64,000 nt of DNA from an uncultured Prevotella sp. (lineage in GTDB: Bacteria; Bacteroidota; Bacteroidia; Bacteroidales; Bacteroidaceae), in contig OMZM01000004.1 in assembly GCA_900315545.1 (NCBI GenBank), positions 62,001 to 126,000 on the forward strand, in the 5' to 3' direction. Position numbers and translations under genes: made by a program. Numbering within the stretch: position 1 is the stretch's first letter; every line of letters starts with the position of its first letter. Positions 7,668 through 21,495 of this stretch are shown piece after piece. A model generated the notes under the pieces. It ran no database searches, had not been told where the DNA came from, and worked only from the letters and a program-made list of their open reading frames with translations.

Positions 7668-7699
7668 TTAGTTAGTTAGGAGGTTTTTTTGTACCTTTG
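7668..7699 (+). promoter_or_regulatory. promoter of the defence operon (TTAG-N20-TACCTTTG)
   Basis: TACCTTTG at 7692-7699 matches the -7 consensus, with TTAG at 7668-7671 as an imperfect -33 and a 20-bp spacer. It lies 28 bp before the regulator ATG and is the only good promoter seen upstream of the operon. Confidence 0.6.
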
Positions 7700-7726: not shown

Positions 7727-7962
7727 ATGGGAAATAAAGACATCAATCGCTTAAAAGTGGTTTTAGCAGAAAAAAACGAACAAATAAATGGCTTGCAGAA
7801 CAGGTGGGTAAAGATCCTGCAACGGTTAGCAAGTGGTGTACGAATTCTGCTCAGCTAGACATACAAACCTTTATTCGTATCTCAACACTTCTGAATGTTG
7901 AAGTAGAAGAGTTGATCAATAAACAGTATGTTGAATTTGTTAAAGAATCGGGAGCACAGTAA
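7727..7962 (+). pseudogene. XRE-family HTH regulator, shifted at an A7 tract
   Basis: An ATG at 7727 opens a frame (MGNKDINRLKVVLAEKN) that stops after 43 residues at 7856-7858. The -1 frame then encodes RTNKWLAEQVGKDPATVSKW and continues to TAA at 7960-7962, giving about 78 residues in all. Together these make a Cro/C1-type helix-turn-helix regulator, as often found controlling restriction-modification genes. The break is at seven A residues (7770-7776). In the zero frame the site reads A-AAA-AAC (7771-7777), a classical -1 slippery heptamer. Either one A is missing (mutation or read error), or the full protein is made by frameshifting or transcript slippage. The stop overlaps the next ATG (TAATG), implying translational coupling to mod. 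Confidence 0.7.
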
Positions 7963-9752
7963 TGGATAAGTTAGCTTTAATTAAACGGATACAAGAAATT
8001 GAAGGTTTAAGTAATGAGGAGCGTTCGGCTTTGCTCGGGCTGCTCCGTCAGCATAAGAAGTATGGGCTGGTGTGGGAAGACAAGCCAGAGGACGTAGAGG
8101 AAAGGTTGCGCGACGAGCTGCCTGTGCTCCGTGAGGTAAAGGACAAGGCGCTTCTTAGTGATGAGCCTGATGCGCCTAATCATATCCTCATTGAGGGTGA
8201 CAACCTGGAAGCCCTCACCGCCCTCAGCTATACCCATGAGGGCAAGATAGACGTCATCTACATCGATCCGCCGTATAATACGGGCAACAAGGATTTCGTC
8301 TATAACGACTCGTATGTAGACAGCGAGGACGACTACCGCCATAGTAAATGGCTCTCATTTATGAACAAACGTCTGAAGATTGCCAAGAAGCTATTGTCAG
8401 ATAAGGGTGTTATCTTTATTTCAATAGATGACAATGAGCAAGCACAATTGAAATTGCTTTGTGATGAGGTTTTTGGCTCTTCTAGTTTCAGAAACATTCT
8501 TTTTGTTCGCAGAAGAACAAAGACTCTTAACTTGCAATTTGCTTCCAATGGGCTGAATACGCAAAATGTCGGTGCGGAATATGTTTTAGTTTATGCTAAT
8601 AGCGATTTCCTTTACAAGGAAATGCGAGTAAAAAAGAAGGATGCGCCTGATAGAGGAACGTGGAATGTGTTTTGGAGTAATGCTGACAGGCCTACAATGC
8701 GTTATGAATTATTAGGTTTTATTCCATCCACAGGTCAATGGAGATGGGCTAAAGAGCTTGCTATCGAAGCTGTCGAGAACTATAAAGAGTATTTAAAAAC
8801 TGCCGGACATCTAACACTGGAGGAGTATTGGGATCTAACGGGAAGAACAAAACGATTTATTCGTCGTATAAATAATGGTACAGGGAAAAACGGTGGAGTT
8901 CAATACTGGGTTGGTCCTTCAGACACTTATTTGAGAACGACAAATTGGACTGATATTGAGGTTTCTCAAATTCATAAAGATTTTGATTTGCCTTTTGACA
9001 ACCCTAAAAATGTTGAGCTTATAAAAGAAATATTGTCAGCACCCTTTCACCATACGTCTACGGTTTTGGATTTTTTTGCTGGCTCCGGCACCACGCTTCA
9101 TGCCACGATGCAACTGAATGCGGAGGACGGAGGACACAGGCAATGTATCCTGGTAACGAACAACGAAAACAACATCTGCGAAGAGGTGACCTACGAACGG
9201 AACAAGCGGGTGATACAGGGTTATACCACCCCAAAAGGAGTCCAAGTGGCAGGGCTGAAACATAACACGCTGCGCTACTACAAGACAGATTTTATCCCTC
9301 GTGACCGAACACAGAAAAACATGCGCGACTTGGTAAACGCTTCCACCGATTTGCTTTGCATCAAAGAGGACTTGTATGATGAGCAGAACAAGTTCGGACG
9401 CTTCCGCGTGAACCCACGATTGATGCGTTATTTCTCGGATGGGAAGAAGCACATGCTCGTGGTCTATCGGGAAGAGATTGTTGACCAGTTAGCTGCAGAA
9501 ATCGCCAATATGGACTTTGGCAAAGAGAAACTGAAGATATACATCTTCTCACCAGCTCGTTATGCCTTTGACGACAACTTCTTTGAGGTGAGCGACAAAG
9601 TGAAGCTGATAGCACTGCCTGCTGCCATCTATGATGCCTACGAGAAAGTGCTGCCTAAGCGCAAAGAAAAGCTTTTCGACTTGGAAGAGGATGTAGATTC
9701 TCAAACAGCACAAGACTTGTTTGACAATAATGAGGAAGGAGGCGAAGCATGA
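7962..9752 (+). CDS. mod: type III restriction-modification DNA methyltransferase (Mod)
   Basis: This 596-residue beta-class adenine methyltransferase would modify DNA and supply target recognition for the Res subunit. The catalytic motif DPPY is at 102-105 (YIDPPYNTGN), and the SAM-binding motif FFAGSGTT lies near residue 370, giving the motif order of Mod proteins. Residues of about 140-366 between them form the target-recognition region. This part (about 8380-9060) is clearly richer in AT than the two flanks, suggesting it was exchanged with another allele. The start overlaps the regulator stop by one base, and the end overlaps res by 4 bp, so it is embedded in an operon. Confidence 0.92.
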   Translation: MDKLALIKRIQEIEGLSNEERSALLGLLRQHKKYGLVWEDKPEDVEERLRDELPVLREVKDKALLSDEPDAPNHILIEGDNLEALTALSYTHEGKIDVIYIDPPYNTGNKDFVYNDSYVDSEDDYRHSKWLSFMNKRLKIAKKLLSDKGVIFISIDDNEQAQLKLLCDEVFGSSSFRNILFVRRRTKTLNLQFASNGLNTQNVGAEYVLVYANSDFLYKEMRVKKKDAPDRGTWNVFWSNADRPTMRYELLGFIPSTGQWRWAKELAIEAVENYKEYLKTAGHLTLEEYWDLTGRTKRFIRRINNGTGKNGGVQYWVGPSDTYLRTTNWTDIEVSQIHKDFDLPFDNPKNVELIKEILSAPFHHTSTVLDFFAGSGTTLHATMQLNAEDGGHRQCILVTNNENNICEEVTYERNKRVIQGYTTPKGVQVAGLKHNTLRYYKTDFIPRDRTQKNMRDLVNASTDLLCIKEDLYDEQNKFGRFRVNPRLMRYFSDGKKHMLVVYREEIVDQLAAEIANMDFGKEKLKIYIFSPARYAFDDNFFEVSDKVKLIALPAAIYDAYEKVLPKRKEKLFDLEEDVDSQTAQDLFDNNEEGGEA

Positions 9753-12106
9753 AAGAACTGATATTTCAACAGAAAGCGGTACGGGAGTTGGTAGATAAAA
9801 CCATCAATCTTCTCCGTTTGTCAGGCAATAGTCGTAGGCTTATCTTTAAGGCTCCTACTGGAGCAGGTAAGACCGTGATGACAACGCAAATGCTTGCCAA
9901 TCTTACAGAAGAATTGCAATCGAGAAGCGACTTGCCTTTCCAGCAGGTGGCATTTGTTTGGATAGCACCGAACAAGTTGCATCAACAGAGTTACTTCAAA
10001 ATGAAGAACTACTTCACGGAAACACACCTTCTTCGTGCCGTGATGTACGATGAACTTGACCATTCGGAAGGTTATATCAAACCAGGCGAAATACTCTTTG
10101 TAAACTGGGAAAGCATCAACAAAGATAAAAACGTAATGGTGCGAGACAGTGAACAGAACGCCAGTATTTTTGAGATTACACGTCGTACAAGGGAAGAACA
10201 CGGACTGCCCATCGTCGTTATCATCGACGAGGAACACTTGTTCTGGTCAAAGACTGCCGACAAGTCAAAGCAGGTGTTGGAAAAGATTAAGCCGAAGGTG
10301 GAAATCCGCGTGTCTGCCACTCCCAAGACGTATAGCGACTATATTGTAAAAGTAGAGCGTGAGGCGGTTATCGCTGAAGAGATGATCAAGAAACAGGTAA
10401 TCCTGAATCCTGATATCACCGAAGGATATACCGATGAGCGGGAGTTGAACCAACACTTGATTGCTTGCGCTCTGAAGAAGCGCAACCAGTTGGCTGAAGC
10501 ATATCAAGCACTCGGTGTGAACATCAATCCGTTGCTACTCATTCAGCTTCCGAATGACACGAGCGAGAGCATGACGGCAGAAGATACGAAAATTGCCGAT
10601 CAGGTGAAGGCGTATCTCGGTCAGGTCTGTGGTATCACCACGGAGAACGGAAGGCTCGCTATATGGCTTTCAAAAGAAAAAGAAAATCTTGCGAATTTGG
10701 AACAACAAGACAATATTGCCGAAGTGTTGTTGTTCAAACAGGCGATAGCACTTGGCTGGGACTGTCCGCGTGCTGCCGTTTTACTTATTTTCCGAAAGCT
10801 GAGTAGCGACACGTTTACCGTTCAGACGGTGGGACGCATCTTGCGTATGCCAGAACAGAAGTTCTACACCAACAACCTTCTGAATGTGGGTTATGTTTAT
10901 ACAGATATCAGTAAAGACCGCATATCGATTGTTGCCGAAGATATGGACTACCTGAACAAAGATGCGCTTCAAGCAACAAGAAGAAAAGACTTGAAAAATG
11001 TGTGGCTCCAGTCTTACTACAGCGAGCGGAAGAGTAGCGACCGTAACCGTCTAGGACCTGACTTCAAAAAAGTTTTAATGGATAGCTTCACCAGAAACTG
11101 GCTGCTGATAAACCAGCCATCTTTCTTTACGTTAGAGGACTTTGGCGAAGAAAGTTCTGAGGAGGAAACGAATCATGAGACATCTGAATCTGCTCCTGCT
11201 CAAAATCGGAATAAGATGGAGGGTAAACTTCGTCTTGATGTAAAAAATATCAACGTGGCGATACCATCTAACGTGATTTTCCAAAATGATATTGGCACGA
11301 TAGATGTTGGAGAACGCCGCAAGTTCGCAAGAAGTGCTGGTGAAATAAGACGTATATATATAGATTTCTGCCGAAGCTTACTCGGACAGTTTGAAAAGGC
11401 TCATAGTACCGATGTGCTTGCGGGCTACCTTCTTGCCATTATGGAAGAGCTGTTTGAACTGTTTGAAACGGATGCCATGAAAGTCATCCTGTATCATGGT
11501 AATAAAGCACGATTCACGGACGTCATACAGAAAGCGTTGACAATATATGCTAGAATGTTGCAGGCTCGTCAGCGTGAGGCGAAAAAACGTGGCTTTGAAG
11601 CATACAAATGGGAAGTTCCAGCAGAGCGTCTATACAAGGAGTCAACGCACCAAATTATTAAGAATGTAGAAGACCATGCGCTGCTACCTTTCGTAGAATT
11701 GAAAGTTGCATCAAATCCTGAGCAGCGTTTCCGTTTGTTCTTGGAGTCGAACAAAGAATACATAGACTGGTGGTATAAGAATGGTGACGAGGGTAAGCAA
11801 CATTATTCCATTCCCTATGAAACAAGTACAGGAGACAAGTCTCTATTCTATGTGGACTTCATTATCAGAATGAAAAATGGCCAAGTATTCTTGTTCGATA
11901 CAAAGTCGCCTAATAGCGATGGCGAAGCGCCTCAAAAGCATAATGCGCTGATTGACTATATGGCTGATGAAGAAAGAGCCGATGAGCACTTGCTTGGAGG
12001 TGTTCTGATAGAGAAAAATGATGTGTGGTACTATTCGCGTTTTCATATTGATCGTACAGACGATGTCACAGGATGGGACGCTTTCTTTCCTAACGCATAT
12101 AAATAA
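9749..12106 (+). CDS. res: type III restriction enzyme Res subunit (SF2 helicase plus nuclease)
   Basis: This 785-residue protein combines a superfamily 2 helicase with a C-terminal nuclease. Helicase motifs in order are APTGAGKT at 35-42, DEEH at 160-163, SATPK at 189-193 and a motif VI-like QTVGRILRMPEQ near 360. A PD-(D/E)XK-like site lies near residues 700-720, where YVDFIIRM is followed by FLFDTK. With Mod it should cut DNA lacking the host methylation after ATP-driven movement. Its gene overlaps mod by 4 bp and precedes the 74-aa gene by 8 bp. Length is somewhat short for classical Res, but all key motifs are visible. Confidence 0.9.
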   Translation: MKELIFQQKAVRELVDKTINLLRLSGNSRRLIFKAPTGAGKTVMTTQMLANLTEELQSRSDLPFQQVAFVWIAPNKLHQQSYFKMKNYFTETHLLRAVMYDELDHSEGYIKPGEILFVNWESINKDKNVMVRDSEQNASIFEITRRTREEHGLPIVVIIDEEHLFWSKTADKSKQVLEKIKPKVEIRVSATPKTYSDYIVKVEREAVIAEEMIKKQVILNPDITEGYTDERELNQHLIACALKKRNQLAEAYQALGVNINPLLLIQLPNDTSESMTAEDTKIADQVKAYLGQVCGITTENGRLAIWLSKEKENLANLEQQDNIAEVLLFKQAIALGWDCPRAAVLLIFRKLSSDTFTVQTVGRILRMPEQKFYTNNLLNVGYVYTDISKDRISIVAEDMDYLNKDALQATRRKDLKNVWLQSYYSERKSSDRNRLGPDFKKVLMDSFTRNWLLINQPSFFTLEDFGEESSEEETNHETSESAPAQNRNKMEGKLRLDVKNINVAIPSNVIFQNDIGTIDVGERRKFARSAGEIRRIYIDFCRSLLGQFEKAHSTDVLAGYLLAIMEELFELFETDAMKVILYHGNKARFTDVIQKALTIYARMLQARQREAKKRGFEAYKWEVPAERLYKESTHQIIKNVEDHALLPFVELKVASNPEQRFRLFLESNKEYIDWWYKNGDEGKQHYSIPYETSTGDKSLFYVDFIIRMKNGQVFLFDTKSPNSDGEAPQKHNALIDYMADEERADEHLLGGVLIEKNDVWYYSRFHIDRTDDVTGWDAFFPNAYK

Positions 12107-12114
12107 CTTGAGAT

Positions 12115-12339
12115 ATGGCTAAGAATAAAAACCTAGACAGAAACCTGCTCCATTATGGGGTACGTCAAGAAGACATGGCTTTGATTGCTCAAACATGCCA
12201 AGATTGTGACATCGACTTTGAGTGGTTGAAGGAATATATCCTTAAACCATACAATGAGGAACGTACAAACAACAATGCGCTGACAGTGGACGACAAAAAA
12301 CTGTCGAAGATACTGAAGAAAGCGTTAAAAAACATATAG
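12115..12339 (+). CDS. small DNA-modification-system-associated protein
   Basis: This is a 74-residue protein (MAKNKNLDRNLLHYGVRQ...) that is mostly helical and ends in a lysine-rich tail (KLSKILKKALKNI). It has no signal peptide and no metal motif. It resembles the short proteins usually annotated as DNA-modification-system-associated; that label reflects gene neighbourhood, not a known activity. It lies 8 bp after res and 4 bp before the SMC-like ATPase, so it belongs to the operon. A role as an adaptor between the ATPases and the Res/Mod complex is possible but is only a guess. Confidence 0.75.
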   Translation: MAKNKNLDRNLLHYGVRQEDMALIAQTCQDCDIDFEWLKEYILKPYNEERTNNNALTVDDKKLSKILKKALKNI

Positions 12340-12343
12340 AGCC

Positions 12344-14359
12344 ATGAAGATAAAACGTATTTACGCAGAAAACTATAAAACCTACAAGAGCCTTGACCTG
12401 GACTTGGAGGTGACAAAAGAGCGTCCAATCATCCTGATTGGTGGTGGAAATGGCTGTGGTAAAACCACGTTGTTCGATGCTATTTATCATGCTCTGTATG
12501 GTTTGGAAGTGAAGAATGCCCGACAATTCGAGGAGCTGTTCAATGCAGGAGAGAAAATATCTACGGGAATGAAAGGAAAGAAAATCATTCTCCGAGTTGA
12601 CTTCTCTGGTTATGTCCTTAACAAGGAAGAGCAATATCGATTGGAACGCTCATATATGCTATCGGAGGATCGCATATTAGAATCGGTACGTTTGTTTATG
12701 GGTGGCACTACCTTTACTTATGGTACTGGTTCCACAGCAGCACAACGTTCGACAAATGAAGAAATCGTCAATAAAATTATCGCTGCCAACCTTCCGAAAG
12801 AACTGAGTTCTTATTTCCTTTTCGATGCGATGAAGACAAGTGATTTGCTGAAAGAAGAGCAAATCAATAAACTTATTGAAAAGAACATCAATTCTGTGAT
12901 GGGTTTCAACAAGTATAGTCGTTTGCGTAAGGGAGCAGAAGTGATGCTTGACGAAAAGAAAGCTGAGCGTCTGGAAAATGAAAACCAAAGAAAAGAATAC
13001 GCCAACCTTACGACGAGAAAACAGGACTTGGAGAAAGAGGTTGAAGAGTTGAACAACCAGTATGCTGAAGCCCTGGAATATGCTAATGAGAACAAAGAAC
13101 AGTATGACCAGCTAAAAGAAGGACGCAATGCAGATGATGTGACCCGTGATAAGATTAGGAAAATAGAACAATCTATCAACGCTACATTGGAAGCTGAAAA
13201 GAATTATCGCCAAAACGTGGACGCGATGGCGAAAGATATTGAAACAAAGGTAATCTTCCCAAAACTGGCAAGCTTAATCAGTACGGAAATAGAAATGATT
13301 GTCCACGCTAAAGAGGATGTGGCATCTGCCAAAGTCAACCTCCTTACAGATAGTCAGATTGAACATTTTACAGCTACCCTTTCAAAACTGATAGAGGAAA
13401 GGTATATGGCAGGACGCCATATTGATGTACCTTCGCTGATTGAGGAAATGAAATTGCAGCAGGAGCGCGAAAATACTGTAGAAGACAAATATTCATTCCT
13501 TAACGCTGCAGATATCAACCGGCTGAAGGATTTGATATACGCATCGGTTTCAAATCCATTTACTGCTCTTGACGATACAAGGGAACGCTTGAAACATGAT
13601 ATTCATGAGTTACCACGTCTGAAAGAACAACAAAAAGACTACCAGCGTACATTAAATGGTAGTGATTATACAATCATAGAATTGTATGAAAATAATGGAA
13701 AACGCATCAATGAGCTCAAAACTGAAATCGCTGAGAAGAAAGAGGAAATAAAGGACCTGACAAAGAAAATTGCCACCTACGACTATGATATGCCACAGGT
13801 GCCTGATCCTCAATACGATTTACTTTGTAAATTGCCCGACTTCTTCAAACAGCTTTCAGTACAGTTGCTCAGAGCTAAGAAAGCGAGCATTGAGAGAATG
13901 ATGCGCGACCAGCTGAATTTAAATTTGGTTGTTTATCGTGATATGATTGGACGGGTGGAGCTTTCTGCGTCGAGCAGCGATGATATTTCTTTCAAAATTT
14001 ATCACAGAGATGGTAATGAAATTTATCTGAGCCAACTTAACGCTGGAGCTAAGCAAACAGTGATGCAGGTTCTTTTGAAAGTTTTGTATGAATTGGGAGA
14101 TTATGCACCTCCTGTAATGATTGATACCGTGATGGGCGTGCTTGATAAGGAAAGTCGTGAGGTTATACTGGAGCGATATTTCCCTGACCTCGCCCACCAG
14201 ACAATCCTACTCAGTACTGATACGGAAATCACGACAGAAGCTGACTTTGAGAAAATACAAGCGTACGTAGCAAAGACTTATACACTGCACCGTGATAAGG
14301 AAAACCAATGTACAAACATAACGGACGACTATTTCGGACTTTATACTAAAGACATTTAA
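12344..14359 (+). CDS. DndD-like SMC/Rad50-type ATPase
   Basis: This 671-residue protein has the layout of DndD/Rad50 ATPases. Walker A is GGGNGCGKTT at 33-42. Long charged coiled-coil segments lie at about 205-290 and 440-500. An ABC signature variant (LNAGAKQ) is near 565, and Walker B (PVMIDTVMGVLD) is near 590-600, comparable to the DTPLGRLD motif of DndD. Such proteins bind DNA ends or nicks in Dnd phosphorothioation and other defence systems. No DndA, B or C gene is present, so a sulfur-modification role is not supported. The signature has Ala where Gly or Glu is usual. It is 4 bp from its neighbours on both sides. Confidence 0.85.
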   Translation: MKIKRIYAENYKTYKSLDLDLEVTKERPIILIGGGNGCGKTTLFDAIYHALYGLEVKNARQFEELFNAGEKISTGMKGKKIILRVDFSGYVLNKEEQYRLERSYMLSEDRILESVRLFMGGTTFTYGTGSTAAQRSTNEEIVNKIIAANLPKELSSYFLFDAMKTSDLLKEEQINKLIEKNINSVMGFNKYSRLRKGAEVMLDEKKAERLENENQRKEYANLTTRKQDLEKEVEELNNQYAEALEYANENKEQYDQLKEGRNADDVTRDKIRKIEQSINATLEAEKNYRQNVDAMAKDIETKVIFPKLASLISTEIEMIVHAKEDVASAKVNLLTDSQIEHFTATLSKLIEERYMAGRHIDVPSLIEEMKLQQERENTVEDKYSFLNAADINRLKDLIYASVSNPFTALDDTRERLKHDIHELPRLKEQQKDYQRTLNGSDYTIIELYENNGKRINELKTEIAEKKEEIKDLTKKIATYDYDMPQVPDPQYDLLCKLPDFFKQLSVQLLRAKKASIERMMRDQLNLNLVVYRDMIGRVELSASSSDDISFKIYHRDGNEIYLSQLNAGAKQTVMQVLLKVLYELGDYAPPVMIDTVMGVLDKESREVILERYFPDLAHQTILLSTDTEITTEADFEKIQAYVAKTYTLHRDKENQCTNITDDYFGLYTKDI

Positions 14360-14363
14360 GGCT

Positions 14364-15965
14364 ATGAGTAATATACATCAATTAACCGTGAAAGGAGTTA
14401 CTGCTATTCAGGGAATGCATGACCGAATTGCAGACGTAAAAGCGATGTTGGAGAATCGCCTGAATTTGGAAGAGTACACAGAAAATGTGCGCCCTTTAGT
14501 CCTCAATCATAGTGTTGCTTTACGTATATGTCTGCTTGCTGGACTGAGTGACAAGTCTCCAAGAACGATTGACGACTTGAACAGTTATAACCTTACTGTT
14601 TCGAGAACTCCTTATGCCACAACTTTCTTTACGAAGTCTGATATCGGTTCTATGTTTGAGACGCTGCTTAAACTTAGATACCATGATGTTGAAGCTGATT
14701 GGACTTCTGCAAATCTTGTAAGTCGTGTGATGGGACGCGAGATTTTAAGAGGAAGAGATATTCTTTTGAGAAACGGAGGTGTTGAAGAATGGCTGACATA
14801 TTTACCTCTGAGAGGTGGACGTTCCGTAAATGCTATCCCAGAACTTGACTTGCATGTTGGTCAGTATGACAATGGCATGGAAGCCTACCTCGACATGAAT
14901 AGTCGAAGCATCTCCAATACGCAAGTTCTTGTCGCAGGAACAACAGGCTCGGGAAAGTCTAATCTTTTGGCAGTGCTTATCAATCAAATAAGAAGCGCAT
15001 CGTCTGACACTCATTATCCTGTTAATTTCCTTTTGTTTGACTACAAAGGAGAATTTTCAGACCCAGCTAATGCTTCATGGCTGGACAAATTTGATACTGA
15101 CAGGTCCGCCATTCTTGACCCGATAGTCAGCCCATTACCTTTTACACCGTTCAAGGATTTCTCAGGAAGACCAATCAACGAGGTGAACTTGTATGCTACT
15201 TCGTTATCGTCCGCTTTGGCAGCCATCTCTCCTACAAAGATTAGCGCAAACATGGACAATAGACTGAGTGAAGCTATCATAAACGCTTATAAAGAAAAGC
15301 AATTCAAGCCAATAACCTTCGAGGATGTCTTGAATAATTATATTATGTTGCTCCCAGAAAAGAAGCAGGATGATACGGACAGCGTTATTTCGTCACTAAG
15401 TCAGCTGGTAAGAAACCATATATTCGCTGATGAAGACAGAATAGATCTTCTCAACGATTGCTACATCATCAATTTAGGTAGCTTTGAAAAGGATGGCATA
15501 ATGGCTAAGGCAATTGTCTACTTTGTTATCTCTAAACTCAATAACATCTATGAGAAACTGCCTAAACAGGCAGTAAATGATGAGAGAGTTGAATTGCGCC
15601 ACTTTACGATTATTGATGAAGCACATTATATGCTTGGCTTTGAAAACAAACCTTTGCAAAACCTTATTGCTGTAGGAAGGAACAAAGGTATGAGCATTAT
15701 TCTAGCTACACAAAACATGGAGAGCTTTAAGAGTAAACACTTTGATTTCTACGCTAATGCTCAATATCCTCTGATTATGAAGCAACAGCAACAGAATGAT
15801 AATGTCTTAAAAGACCTCTTCGCCGTATCTGGTACTGCACTGCAAGAGCTCAAACAAGCTATTGCTGGTTTGCAAAAAGGGGAATTAATTACGAAGGATG
15901 CCTCGAATATGGCTCTTGGCTTTGGTAAGCACTGGCAGAAAATAAAAGTAACTCACCTTATATAA
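14364..15965 (+). CDS. HerA-like ATPase with DndE-like N-terminal region
   Basis: This 533-residue ATPase belongs to the HerA/FtsK-type DUF87 group. Walker A (AGTTGSGKSN) is at about 191-200 and Walker B (FTIIDEAHYML) near 414-424. Such hexameric motors move along DNA. The first 140 residues show a pattern resembling DndE: a VRPLVLNHSVALRICLLAGL helix, a TPYATTFF segment, LLKLRYHD, and a basic REILRGRDILLR helix. If correct, DndE-like DNA binding is fused to a translocase here. The gene is 4 bp after the DndD-like gene and about 16 bp before the next. The HerA call is firm; the DndE resemblance is by eye. Confidence 0.8.
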   Translation: MSNIHQLTVKGVTAIQGMHDRIADVKAMLENRLNLEEYTENVRPLVLNHSVALRICLLAGLSDKSPRTIDDLNSYNLTVSRTPYATTFFTKSDIGSMFETLLKLRYHDVEADWTSANLVSRVMGREILRGRDILLRNGGVEEWLTYLPLRGGRSVNAIPELDLHVGQYDNGMEAYLDMNSRSISNTQVLVAGTTGSGKSNLLAVLINQIRSASSDTHYPVNFLLFDYKGEFSDPANASWLDKFDTDRSAILDPIVSPLPFTPFKDFSGRPINEVNLYATSLSSALAAISPTKISANMDNRLSEAIINAYKEKQFKPITFEDVLNNYIMLLPEKKQDDTDSVISSLSQLVRNHIFADEDRIDLLNDCYIINLGSFEKDGIMAKAIVYFVISKLNNIYEKLPKQAVNDERVELRHFTIIDEAHYMLGFENKPLQNLIAVGRNKGMSIILATQNMESFKSKHFDFYANAQYPLIMKQQQQNDNVLKDLFAVSGTALQELKQAIAGLQKGELITKDASNMALGFGKHWQKIKVTHLI

Positions 15966-15981
15966 TAAAATTAGAAAAGTG

Positions 15982-16581
15982 ATGGAAAGTTTACAGAAGA
16001 CGTATGAAGCTATCGATATGCTGAAATCGTTAGGGCTTCCTGTAAGCAACGAGCAGCTTATTGCCGTTTCAAAGATGGAGCGGGAGTATCTTCAGGGAGA
16101 AGTTATCCCCCTAATCAAGGCAGAAATGGAACCTTTGGTAGAAACGATGAGAAACAAGTTTCAATTGGAAGTTACATATAGCCTTGAAGATGGATTGGAT
16201 ATACAGCTTGTTGAACGCCGTACCGTGCAGGATGTTACGATGCCTAATTCGGGACAGGGAAAAAGGCAGAAAAAATTCATTATCCGTGTAACTTTCCCTG
16301 ACAACCATGTTTCCTGTAACAAGATGGTTTGGAAAACACTTTTAGATGTCGTAAGATATGCTGGACCTGAAAAAGTAAGAAATCTTAATATGTATATTAT
16401 GGGAGGAAACTTAGTTTCTCCTGATTTACATGAAAACGAAAGATATCGTGTGGGACAGAAAGAGGTTTCTCCTGGTTTATACGTCTGTACTTATTCAAGC
16501 ACAGAAACGAAATATGCCCAGATAATGCAGATAAACCGCTCCCTCAACTTGGGATTAAAGATAGAAAAAGTATTACTATGA
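15982..16581 (+). CDS. accessory protein A of the defence operon (modular, unknown)
   Basis: This protein of about 199 residues has two parts. Residues 1-75 are a helical segment (YEAIDMLKSLGLPVSNEQL, then EVIPLIKAEMEPLVE) that is closely matched by the next gene product. The C-terminal part, about 100-199, has a beta-rich pattern (KFIIRVTFPDNHVSC, then YVCTYSSTETKYAQIMQ). I associate that pattern with uncharacterised modules in Bacteroidota restriction loci. I cannot name a function. I prefer the ATG at 15982 over the GTG codon just before it. The stop overlaps the start of the next gene by 4 bp, so the two are translationally coupled. Confidence 0.75.
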   Translation: MESLQKTYEAIDMLKSLGLPVSNEQLIAVSKMEREYLQGEVIPLIKAEMEPLVETMRNKFQLEVTYSLEDGLDIQLVERRTVQDVTMPNSGQGKRQKKFIIRVTFPDNHVSCNKMVWKTLLDVVRYAGPEKVRNLNMYIMGGNLVSPDLHENERYRVGQKEVSPGLYVCTYSSTETKYAQIMQINRSLNLGLKIEKVLL

Positions 16582-17237
16582 AAGAAGGAGTTGAACGTTT
16601 GAAGAAAGCATATGAAGCTGTAGAAATGCTGAAAGCTCTCAACCTTCCAGTTAGTTTTGAGCAACAGCAAGAGCTAAGTAGACTTGAAAACGAATATATC
16701 ACCAACGAAATCATTCCGTTGATGATTGAGGAATTTGAACCATTTTTCGAAGAAATAAAGTCTGAACGTAAGTTTGAACTTATATATTCTCCAGAAGATG
16801 GTTTGGCTATCATTCCCAAAGAGAGTTCTCAAGTGAAAACTTTACCAGAGTCAAGGAATATAAGTCAAGGAGAAAGAGACCTTAGCAAGTATTCTTTCAA
16901 TGGAAAAGGTCCGTTCAATAAAAGGCGATTTGTTCTTGAAGTCATAAAAGACTATGTTAGGACACATCCTTCTGTCACTTTGATGGATTTAGAAAATCGT
17001 TTTCCTTCTATACTCCACACTACACGTATAAATGGTGTAGTAAGAAAATATGAAGATGTTATGCAACGAGTAGTTGCAAGTCCAGACTTGAAAAAACGTT
17101 TCTTTTTGAAACCTGATGAAATTATTCATCTCGCTGATGGAACAAGGGTTACTGTACACAATCAGTGGGGATCATGTTTTCCTGCTTTCCTTGAAGTTGC
17201 GGAACAGCTTTATGACATTCAAAAGCATAATAACTAA
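16578..17237 (+). CDS. accessory protein B of the defence operon (paralogous N-terminus, different C-terminus)
   Basis: This protein has 219 residues. The first 75 (KKAYEAVEMLKALNLPVSFEQQ, split by a short gap from NEIIPLMIEEFEPFFEE) mirror accessory protein A. The C-terminal 110 residues are unrelated to A. They carry a pattern SFNGKGPFNKRRFVLEVIK, then a conserved-looking VTVHNQWGS near residue 195, a layout I have seen in small DNA-reader-like domains of unknown role. It may contribute DNA recognition or interact with Mod/Res, but this is inference. It is the last tightly packed gene of the defence operon; a secreted-protein gene follows after 42 bp. Confidence 0.75.
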   Translation: MKEGVERLKKAYEAVEMLKALNLPVSFEQQQELSRLENEYITNEIIPLMIEEFEPFFEEIKSERKFELIYSPEDGLAIIPKESSQVKTLPESRNISQGERDLSKYSFNGKGPFNKRRFVLEVIKDYVRTHPSVTLMDLENRFPSILHTTRINGVVRKYEDVMQRVVASPDLKKRFFLKPDEIIHLADGTRVTVHNQWGSCFPAFLEVAEQLYDIQKHNN

Positions 17238-17279: not shown

Positions 17280-17963
17280 ATGAAAAAATTATTTATTATC
17301 CTAATCGCTTTATTGCCCGTGACAGTATTGGCCCAAAATGATGTAACTACATTTTTGGGAATCCCCATCGATGGTTTCAAACCAGCAATGCGTCAGAAAT
17401 TAATTGGAAAAGGGTTTACTCCGCAAAAAGCTGGTACAAATGAGTATTTTGAAGGAGAATTTAATGGTCAGGATGTCCATATTTATATCTCAACCAACAA
17501 CAATAAAGTTTGTCGGCTGATGATATGTGATGCAAATACAACTGACGAAGCGAATATTAAAGTTCGCTTCAACAAGCTTGTTAGTCAATTTGAAAATAAC
17601 AAACGGTATATCCATCTCGGTGATCAATCTCTTTCGGATGATGTGGACATTTCATACGAAATGAGTGTAAACAACAAAAATTTTGATGCTATATTTTACC
17701 AAAATCCTGATCCTGAAAAAACTGATTCAACTTATATACAGAATAAGTTGAGAGAAGAACTGCTACAGAAATATACGCAGGAGCAGTTAGATAATCCAAC
17801 AGAAGAAATGCAAGAAGATATAACATCGGCTATTTTGAAAATTGGCTTTGAAAGATTATCTATGAAACCTGTTTGGTTTAGAATAACTCGCTTTTATAAT
17901 GAGTACTACATTACCATGTATTACGATAATGAATACAATCGTGCTAATGGTGAAGACTTATAA
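17280..17963 (+). CDS. secreted hypothetical protein
   Basis: This 227-residue protein begins with a clear Sec signal peptide (MKKLFIILIALLPVTVLAQ) and no lipobox, so it is probably periplasmic or outer-membrane associated. The mature part is soluble alpha/beta (FLGIPIDGFKPAMRQKLIGKG) with an acidic C-terminus. I do not recognise the family. It follows the accessory protein genes by 42 bp on the same strand and is closed by a strong terminator, so it may be the last gene of the operon. A secreted product is odd in a restriction operon and may be an unrelated passenger. Confidence 0.75.
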   Translation: MKKLFIILIALLPVTVLAQNDVTTFLGIPIDGFKPAMRQKLIGKGFTPQKAGTNEYFEGEFNGQDVHIYISTNNNKVCRLMICDANTTDEANIKVRFNKLVSQFENNKRYIHLGDQSLSDDVDISYEMSVNNKNFDAIFYQNPDPEKTDSTYIQNKLREELLQKYTQEQLDNPTEEMQEDITSAILKIGFERLSMKPVWFRITRFYNEYYITMYYDNEYNRANGEDL

Positions 17964-19501: not shown

Positions 19502-20281
19502 ATGAATTATTTTACCCAACAAAGTATAGAACTTGCCAATCAGCGTAACTATTTGGATTTACTGTTTTCTGTATATCCACTAAGTCCTGACTCTGTTAGG
19601 GAAATAGACAAAAGGGTTTGGGAACAGATTGAAACAAGTTATCGCAGCAATGATAATGTTTCTCTTTTTAAGTCATTGTTGAAACTTAAATGGTTTCCTA
19701 TAAAAGATGGCTATGTCCCTTACTTCAGGAGAGATCCTTCTTCAATAGAGAGAAATCCGATGACAGTGAATAGAATATGTGGAAGAGTCAGAGAATTAGG
19801 TCTTGATAGATTATATGAGAAATGTACTCAACCAAAAGAGACTAACAGACAAATGGGCCCTTTATTTCGCCGATGGCTTAATTTGGGAGCACTTGGTCTT
19901 ATTCCTGTAAGTGAACCAGAGTTTTTGAAATCTAATGACAATGCAATATTAGATGGCTCAGATGCAGAACTAATGGACTTTGCTAAAAGACATTTAGGTT
20001 ATACAAGAAATAAAGGTGTAGATTTTATTGCACGCTTTAATGGGAAATATGTTATTGGCGAAGCAAAATTTATTTCAGATGAAGGAGGGCATCAAAACGA
20101 CCAATTCCTCGACGCAATGACAACGTTGCGCAGTCAGACACGTTCTAATGTGATAAATGTTGCTATCTTGGATGGTGTCCTATATATACCAGGAAAGAAA
20201 AAGATGTACAACTCAATTACAACGGAAGATGTTCCTGTCTTTAGTGCGCTTTTGCTAAGAGACTTTTTATATAGCTTGTAA
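19502..20281 (+). CDS. type II restriction endonuclease, PD-(D/E)XK family
   Basis: This 259-residue protein has a clear PD-(D/E)XK nuclease core: Asp174 in NKGVDFIARF and Glu187-X-Lys189 in YVIGEAKF, followed by SDEGGHQNDQFLDAM. This arrangement is like Tsp45I-type enzymes, but the recognition site cannot be read from sequence. The gene is AT-rich compared with core genes. The cognate methyltransferase starts 1 bp after its stop, forming a normal restriction-modification pair. No controller gene is visible. It lies on the right edge of the accessory region, close to tRNA-Arg. Confidence 0.88.
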   Translation: MNYFTQQSIELANQRNYLDLLFSVYPLSPDSVREIDKRVWEQIETSYRSNDNVSLFKSLLKLKWFPIKDGYVPYFRRDPSSIERNPMTVNRICGRVRELGLDRLYEKCTQPKETNRQMGPLFRRWLNLGALGLIPVSEPEFLKSNDNAILDGSDAELMDFAKRHLGYTRNKGVDFIARFNGKYVIGEAKFISDEGGHQNDQFLDAMTTLRSQTRSNVINVAILDGVLYIPGKKKMYNSITTEDVPVFSALLLRDFLYSL

Positions 20282-20282
20282 A

Positions 20283-21314
20283 ATGGAAGATAACAATATA
20301 TTAATTAAAGGTAACAACATATCAGGACTGAAATGGCTTCTTGATAATGGGTATAAGGGGAAAATAGATTTAGTATATATTGACCCGCCATTTGCTACTG
20401 GTGGTACTTTCTCTAAAGATAAAAATGGGAGAGTAGCCACTATAAGCAAGTCCTCTGATTCTATACTGGCATATAGTGACACGTTGCAAGGAAAAGACTA
20501 TATCAATTATTTGAAAGAAAGAGTTTTGCTTATTAGAGAACTTCTTTCTGATAAAGGCTCATTCTATTTGCACATTGACTATAAGATAGGACATTATGTT
20601 AAAGTTATGTTGGATGAGGTTTTTGGTATCGATAACTTCAGAAATGACATTACAAGAATAAAGTGTAATCCAAAGAATTTTGAAAGAATTGGTTATGGAA
20701 ACATAAAGGATATGATATTGTTCTATACCAAAGGGAAGCGTCCTATTTGGCATAATCCAACATTCCCATGTACAAAAGAAGAAATCGAAAGGCTTTACAC
20801 AAAAATTGATTCCAACGGAAGAAGATACACCACCGTTCCCATCCACGCACCAGGAGAAACAAAAAACGGCGAGTCAAATAAGCCGTTTAGAGGTATATAT
20901 CCACCCAAAGGCAGACACTGGCGATGTTCGGTAGAGGAACTGGAAGAATTAGACCGACAAGGACTCATTGAATGGTCGTCAAAAGGTAATCCTCGTAAGA
21001 TAAACTATGCAGATGACCATATGACTAAGAAGGCTCAGGATATCTGGGAATTTAAGGACCCAAGCTATCCTATATATCCAACTGAGAAAAACTTGGATTT
21101 GCTGAAATTTATAATAGAAGCATCATCCGATGAGGATTCAATCGTTATGGATTGCTTTTGTGGCTCTGGTACTACGATGGTAGTCGCATCCATTTGTAAC
21201 AGGCGATGGATAGGTATTGATAAATCTGAAGTAGCTATCGAAACTGTAAAAAACAGATTTAATACAGATAATTCACTATTCAAAGAAAAGCCTTATACAT
21301 ATATGGAATTATAA
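20283..21314 (+). CDS. site-specific DNA methyltransferase of the type II system
   Basis: This 343-residue beta-class methyltransferase, N6-adenine or N4-cytosine specific, has DPPF at 34-37 (YIDPPFATGG) and the SAM-binding motif CFCGSGTT near 291. Its order, catalytic motif first, is the beta class. Length is normal for a small type II enzyme. It overlaps in function with the adjacent endonuclease and should protect the host from it. The middle part (about 130-240) is the likely target-recognition region. It is followed by a strong terminator shared with tRNA-Arg. Confidence 0.92.
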   Translation: MEDNNILIKGNNISGLKWLLDNGYKGKIDLVYIDPPFATGGTFSKDKNGRVATISKSSDSILAYSDTLQGKDYINYLKERVLLIRELLSDKGSFYLHIDYKIGHYVKVMLDEVFGIDNFRNDITRIKCNPKNFERIGYGNIKDMILFYTKGKRPIWHNPTFPCTKEEIERLYTKIDSNGRRYTTVPIHAPGETKNGESNKPFRGIYPPKGRHWRCSVEELEELDRQGLIEWSSKGNPRKINYADDHMTKKAQDIWEFKDPSYPIYPTEKNLDLLKFIIEASSDEDSIVMDCFCGSGTTMVVASICNRRWIGIDKSEVAIETVKNRFNTDNSLFKEKPYTYMEL

Positions 21315-21411: not shown

Positions 21412-21420
21412 GTGTTTTTG

Positions 21421-21495
21421 TGATTCCGTTGGGGCTCGAACCCAAGACCCACGCCTTAGAAGGGCGTTGCTCTAATCCAACTGAGCTACGGAACC
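21421..21495 (-). tRNA. tRNA-Arg (TCT)
   Basis: The 75-nt cloverleaf reads on the minus strand. The acceptor stem GGTTCCG pairs with CGGAATC with one G-U pair. The anticodon loop is CTTCTAA with anticodon TCT, and the T-arm has GGTTCGAGCCC. CCA is not encoded. Confidence 0.95.

Follow-up and report, generated by a model that had tools for sequence, protein, structure and literature searches.

Systems in which DndD stands beside a DndE-HerA fusion are already on record as clade 3 of the HerA/FtsK family, and so is a small protein associated with Dnd genes (Rakesh et al. 2024, PMC10853773, in the parts available; Pfam PF20306). The present work concerns a locus in a 64-kb stretch of DNA from an uncultured Prevotella sp. 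(contig OMZM01000004.1; hereafter the window, with coordinates on its forward strand), in which a core of this kind, a small protein, a DndD-like ATPase and a putative DndE-HerA fusion, lies immediately 3' of the mod and res genes of a type III restriction-modification (R-M) pair. We lean, if only slightly, towards viewing the whole as one composite R-M system of two modules, a clade-specific type III Mod/Res (module 1) and the small protein, DndD and DndE-HerA, which would scan DNA on behalf of Res (module 2, or the motor module). What is new, with reserve, is the coupling of a known DndD/DndE-HerA core to Mod/Res: a literature search of partial coverage returned no earlier mention of it, and it goes unmentioned in those parts of PMC10853773, PMC8565338, PMC12839542, PMC12707154, PMC5608340 and PMC8259958 that were covered.

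Co-occurrence of the five core genes

Scanning 84,980 species genomes with an alignment of the HerA protein yielded 185 relatives, the best 80 of which were fetched, some near-duplicates among them. Mod, Res, the small protein, DndD and DndE-HerA are all present, in the same order and on one strand, in 61 of these 80 related loci. Seventeen of the other 19 are cut short upstream, their contig or fetched stretch ending within a core gene or directly in front of one; the last two are L056, where Res is present with extra genes on either side and Mod may have fallen outside the DNA fetched, and L106, where DndD is reduced to a C-terminal fragment and a recombinase-like open reading frame (ORF; judged by eye) lies upstream. 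When the count is confined to loci with enough upstream DNA to be testable, HerA is accompanied by DndD in 73/73, by the small protein in 70/71, by Res in 59/60 and by Mod in 54/56, and the truncated L106 is the sole testable locus with module 2 genes but without Res. A preliminary description, made from the letters of the window, had taken the ATPases and Mod/Res for parts of one machine and had suggested counting how often the genes co-occur in this order; the counts bear it out and contradict the opposite case, in which the ATPases would usually occur without mod/res. The relatives are nearly all labelled Bacteroidota, the exceptions being L087 (Alphaproteobacteria) and L090 ('uncultured bacterium'). 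Among the carriers are the cultured strains Phocaeicola coprophilus DSM 18228 (L113), Segatella copri iA622 (L097) and Flavobacterium granuli DSM 19729 (L104). The Res of L087, on a contig labelled as an alphaproteobacterial metagenome-assembled genome, groups with Bacteroidota copies, which may reflect transfer or misbinning. In viral_contigs, scanned once with that same HerA alignment, no relative turned up.

The association can also be viewed from the side of Res, which was searched in 301 family, 393 order and 375 phylum genomes (draws that share some genomes). Twelve loci were recovered at E <= 1e-100, eight with the motor module (G000, G017, G199, G212, G165, G287, the first locus of G321, and G339), two without it (L144 and L160) and two on contigs that stop at Res. 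A rapid, midpoint-rooted tree of 70 Res rows was built without bootstrap, and its long branches lie mostly outside the partner clade. In this tree the partners of module 2 fall into one clade of 58 (Shimodaira-Hasegawa-like approximate likelihood ratio test 100), comprising 55 with the system, two alone (L144 and L160) and one on a cut contig. Genome G321 holds one complete system (L159) and the solitary same-clade Mod/Res pair L160. As for ordinary, more distant type III loci, module 2 is absent from 11/11 informative cases (L145-L151, L153, L244, L245 and L247), which have at least 2.2 kb beyond Res; L152 and L246 had no such room.

Components of the two modules

The features of the locus are collected in Table 1.

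Table 1. Genes and domains of the locus in the window (aa, amino acids; HTH, helix-turn-helix; SF2, superfamily 2; ABC, ATP-binding cassette)
Feature	Position	Strand	Basis or remark
XRE-type HTH regulator, frame-broken	7727..7962	+	5' half from ATG 7727, 3' half 7804-7962
Mod, type III beta-class amino-methyltransferase	7962..9752	+	PADLOC MTase_III 4.2e-86; PF01555 2.5e-30
Mod hypervariable region, aa 185-350	8514..9011	+	Taken as target-recognition region
Res, SF2 helicase with C-terminal D...DxK nuclease motif	9749..12106	+	PF04851 7.2e-16; PADLOC REase_III 1.4e-18
Small protein of 74 aa, Sp-DndD family	12115..12339	+	PF20306 E 1.7e-4, 22.1 bits, cut-off 27.2
DndD-like coiled-coil ABC ATPase	12344..14359	+	PADLOC DndD 9.2e-68, nearly full length
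DndE-like domain (predicted) fused to HerA/FtsK ATPase	14364..15965	+	PADLOC DndH 1.9e-27; PF01935 3.3e-11
DndE-like N-terminal domain, aa 1-168	14364..14867	+	Two strand-helix-helix units, predicted fold
Accessory protein X1	15982..16581	+	Shared N-terminal helical module and X1C C-terminal domain; no Pfam family over cut-off
Accessory protein X2	16578..17237	+	N-terminal module similar to X1, different C-terminal domain, PADLOC PDC-S57 like

Across the 53 aligned sequences, the catalytic residues tested in the four enzymes (Mod, Res, DndD and HerA) are conserved in all or in all but one, D601 of DndD (47/53) excepted. Those of Mod, which matches the N6_N4_Mtase family of Pfam and, in the PDB, the type III Mods 6k0w, 7dsu and EcoP15I (4zcf), are DPPY (52/53, with one gap) and FxGxG (53/53). 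Mean pairwise identity over the 53 Mod sequences is 0.67 for aa 1-180, 0.23 for the hypervariable region and 0.54 for aa 365-596, as would be expected of a middle part that changes with the target site. Since type III Mods making N4-methylcytosine (m4C) also bear DPPY (PMC8259958, in the part available), N6-methyladenine (m6A) alone is not claimed. In Res, Walker A, DExH, R363/R366 and D703/D717/K719 are kept in 53/53, and a PDB profile search gave no match at 1e-3. Two sequence hallmarks of type III systems are found, namely an adjoining Mod with DPPY, FxGxG and a variable recognition region and, at motif level, a Res with SF2 helicase and PD-(D/E)xK nuclease.

In module 2, 24 of the 28 aligned small proteins, the window copy included, match PF20306 at 0.01 (best 6.4e-12). 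The DndD-like ATPase scores 202.8 bits with TIGR03185, under the NCBIfam equivalog cut-off of 245.85, and keeps its Walker A residues and D594 in 53/53. The HerA part, whose PDB match is the DptH ATPase 7es4 (8.8e-15), keeps Walker A K198 and DE418-419 in 53/53. The DndD-like and HerA-like ATPases of the preliminary description stand, with the correction that the HerA protein would bear a DndE-like domain at its N-terminus; this identification comes from a predicted model only, and no DndE match was returned for the domain by NCBIfam or by a PDB profile search.

No DndC was detected in the genome of the window (92% complete). Among 20 carrier genomes, several of them incomplete, DndC reaches the family cut-off in one; the other 19, with that of the window among them, stay below it, one giving a trace match (19.2 bits). 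The DndC over the cut-off belongs to L239, in the genome of L103, and because it sits in a DndC-DndD-DndE/HerA locus of its own (8222-13267), this genome holds both kinds of system. Within the genus and family of the window there are further DndC-bearing cousins of this kind (L029, L030 and L032; NCBIfam names were checked for L029). With DndC missing and DndC-bearing cousins at hand, the idea gains that the ATPases of module 2 might act on DNA marked by Mod rather than by sulfur.

Layout, accessory proteins and neighbours

Seven intact genes, all on the + strand, span 7962-17237, with the broken HTH regulator 5' of Mod. The junctions from Mod through X2 measure -4, 8, 4, 4, 16 and -4 nucleotides (nt), the HerA-X1 spacing of 16 nt becoming 13 nt if X1 starts at GTG 15979, and because they overlap or span few nt, translational coupling and one transcript for the seven genes are likely. 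The two halves of the regulator lie in different frames, the switch being near a run of seven A (7770-7776), and the 3' half matches Pfam HTH_3 (E 4.3e-5); the break may be a true mutation, slippage or an artefact of assembly. Genes like these halves were found in just 2/86 related loci (tblastn, E < 0.01), so the regulator is not a core part. Intact HTH ORFs of the same type exist elsewhere (e.g. L030 8178-8387), and small HTH ORFs resembling the regulator precede L030 and L032, two cousins of the DndC type. Two early proposals about the operon fared differently. Its tight packing on one strand stands for the seven genes (-4 to 16 nt) but not for the regulator, which has no intact ORF. A single promoter for the whole unit finds no support: promoter-like matches number 42 against 37.0 in shuffles (standard deviation 5.5), an excess of less than one standard deviation in which none could be identified, and the TAnnTTTG element at 7692 recurs at seven positions further downstream. 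A terminator scan gave 15 matches against 9.5 in shuffles, and individual sites are given no weight.

X1 (model with predicted local distance difference test 86.8 and predicted template modelling score 0.52) and X2 (PDC-S57 at 8.9e-10 over aa 94-210) are paralogous, with an N-terminal module common to both and different C-terminal modules. In relatives this N-terminal module joins other partners, and of six X-family variants scanned, four had no Pfam match and two matched, one a topoisomerase C-terminal repeat and the other DUF4357, there together with X1C. Ends resembling topoisomerase C-terminal repeats follow an X-type N-terminal module in L039, L040, L063 and L066 (Pfam-confirmed for L039). 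X proteins are present in 23/73 loci having at least 900 nt 3' of HerA and are nearly always found 3' of HerA, although in L048 the X gene is flanked by those for Res and the small protein. The X1 profile matches in 41/301 family genomes, 36 of these 41 without a close DndD match, and in L223 and L225 X proteins are beside or near a helicase and an Eco57I-type methylase. Pairs of proteins of ~1,100 aa lie close to X1-family proteins in L223, L225, L229 and L233, the pairs of L223 and L225 being this helicase and methylase; in L226 and L238 one such protein is among the ORFs listed. X1 and X2, initially proposed as additional parts of the system, are thus present in a share of the loci but optional, and their family adjoins other systems too; they would be exchangeable adaptors serving R-M-like systems that depend on ATP.

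An ORF lies within a gap between core genes in 19/61 complete loci and in none of the gaps of the remaining 42. Ten such inserted genes, from nine relatives, were scanned and matched Abi_2 (three), YhcG (two), GmrSD_N, Schlafen AlbA_2, AAA_15/DUF3696 and a polyvalent-protein kinase (PolyVal; one each), one being without match; most of the ten match families tied to defence or phage conflict.

On the 3' side, 42 nt after X2, a gene at 17280-17963 encodes a protein of 227 aa with a signal-peptide-like start (by eye) and no Pfam family over cut-off, which is probably outside the system. A second R-M pair lies at 19502-21314 (a Tsp45I-family restriction endonuclease, PF06300, 1.4e-119, and an N6/N4 methylase), and after it come tRNA-Arg (21420-21495) and a GMP-synthase gene. 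Homologues of nrdD and guaA are far apart or on separate contigs in three same-genus genomes, and therefore no empty site is readable.

Possible mechanism, alternatives and relation to known systems

In the composite system that we favour, Mod would methylate a short site (m6A or m4C) chosen by its variable region, and Res would be an ATP-driven helicase-nuclease. Module 2 appears to provide ATPases and a DNA-binding domain without any recognised nuclease or modifying enzyme. DndE together with DndD would load onto DNA and scan it, the HerA ring would move or hold it, and methylation would be the mark of self, so that unmethylated DNA is handed to Res and cut, presumably in defence of the cell. 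The small protein would tune assembly or activity, and X1 and X2 would be optional adaptors adding DNA-binding or sensing domains. Because module 1 has both nuclease and modifier and can live alone, module 2 is most simply read as an accessory to Mod/Res that scans DNA or captures it on their behalf; it might aid cutting, methylation or a suicide response, and cutting is preferred.

In favour of this proposal are the near-constant company of the motor genes and Mod/Res, the single Res clade, the lack of module 2 in ordinary type III loci, the conserved catalytic residues, DndC under cut-off in 19/20 carriers together with the DndC-bearing cousins, the families tied to defence or phage conflict among the inserted genes, and high correlations of protein distances inside module 2. 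Other observations weigh against it. Distances between proteins were correlated using the window and those 52 of the 61 complete loci that passed a length filter, relatedness being uncorrected. Within module 2 the Spearman coefficients are 0.81 (small protein-DndD), 0.79 (small protein-HerA) and 0.86 (DndD-HerA), and Mod-Res is moderate at 0.55, but between modules they are low (0.29-0.38). The modules therefore swap partners, so that whatever contact exists between the two has to be a tolerant one. With this pattern, and because L042 (HerA 80%, Res 47% identical to the window) and L096 (HerA 56%, Res 68%) show opposite identities, the modules seem to have been exchanged and yet kept together. 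In addition, the in-clade pairs L144 and L160 stand without module 2, from which it follows that Mod/Res can persist without it. As for DndE, the fold match has a middling Z, of a size that mostly helical models can reach by common arrangement, and hhalign of the domain against four DndE sequences gave no match (probability 0.24 on the per cent scale, E 0.25).

Might module 2 serve modification instead, DndD and DndE-HerA being needed for methylation by Mod, much as Dnd systems need DndD and DndE to insert sulfur and bacteriophage exclusion (BREX) systems need several subunits to methylate? The sulfur cousins have the same core beside a modifying enzyme, DndC, and BREX methylation likewise requires several proteins, a subset of those of the system (PMC13326643, in the part available). 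The existence of L144 and L160 argues against such a dependence, which we consider doubtful. Known type III Mods are, moreover, self-sufficient for methylation. It is also unlikely that module 2 is a guard that detects when Mod/Res is attacked or fails and then sets off killing through X or inserted toxins. Abi_2, YhcG and similar genes are indeed inserted in some relatives, and back-up effectors and suicide have been proposed for related cores (Rakesh et al., PMC10853773, in the parts available), but most complete loci (42/61) have no ORF in the core-gene gaps, X proteins occur in just 23 of 73 loci, and the two X variants with Pfam matches are no known toxin.

The low correlation between modules, and the second R-M pair close to the operon, would suit two independent systems that are simply neighbours within one defence island. 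Near-universal co-occurrence in a single order, with junctions that mostly overlap or span few nt, the grouping of Res partners in one clade and the finding of module 2 without Res in truncated L106 alone among testable loci make this improbable. Hardly credible is a further DNA modification made by module 2 itself: although DndD/DndE cores belong to modification systems (PMC10853773, in the parts available), Mod is the sole modifying enzyme recognised in the core by PADLOC, Pfam and NCBIfam scans, and DndC is under cut-off in all but one of the 20 carriers.

Returning to the composite system, whether it represents a methyl version of Dnd, in which the small protein, DndD and DndE-HerA form a portable scanning and capture engine that pairs either with sulfur marking (DndC) or with type III methylation, is a question on which we are evenly divided. 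The locus offers a natural experiment on the function of the DndD/DndE core: if that core does work alongside the nuclease and methylase of a type III system, it would be a more general DNA-scanning engine not bound to sulfur chemistry. One motor would then read chemically unrelated marks or serve unrelated marking enzymes, and some simple-looking Mod/Res pairs of Bacteroidota would be parts of larger machines, which bears on the reading of methylomes and on the obstacles that DNA meets in entering gut bacteria.

Several described systems resemble the locus in part. Hma, to which the preliminary description had tentatively likened it, also groups helicase, methylase and ATPase genes, but it is a three-gene operon with a 5-methylcytosine (m5C) methyltransferase and, in the part of PMC8565338 available, no mention of DndE or HerA; the window Mod is of the N6/N4 family, no Hma profile figures among the PADLOC matches listed (best 25 of 31 for Mod, best 25 of 60 for DndD), and this assignment was rejected. 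The PbeABCD/CxC-ATPase systems share an SF2 helicase with nuclease, a small protein, a DndD-related ATPase and a DndE-like protein, and some carry cytosine methylases (PMC10853773, in the parts available). The window locus differs in having an N6/N4-type Mod and a DndE (predicted) fused to HerA, and PbeABCD was rejected for it since its ATPase is without C-x-C, a motif found somewhere in 4/53 aligned DndD rows at whatever position, and its Res without a PLD/HKD family match. The small protein is akin to Sp-DndD (PF20306), which most members of this system match, the window's copy falling under the curated cut-off. With EcoP15I-type systems the locus has in common the mod-res pair, the beta-class Mod with its variable region and the SF2 helicase with a nuclease motif; it differs in that its Res belongs to a clade of its own and in carrying three additional conserved genes, two of which encode further ATPases. 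Finally, the clade 3 systems with DndC (e.g. L029 and L239) have the same DndD-like ABC ATPase followed by DndE-HerA in one polypeptide, an architecture found here with DndE by fold only, and a related HerA core (24% identity over 304 aligned positions); where they have the DndC sulfurtransferase, the window locus has Mod, Res and the small protein.

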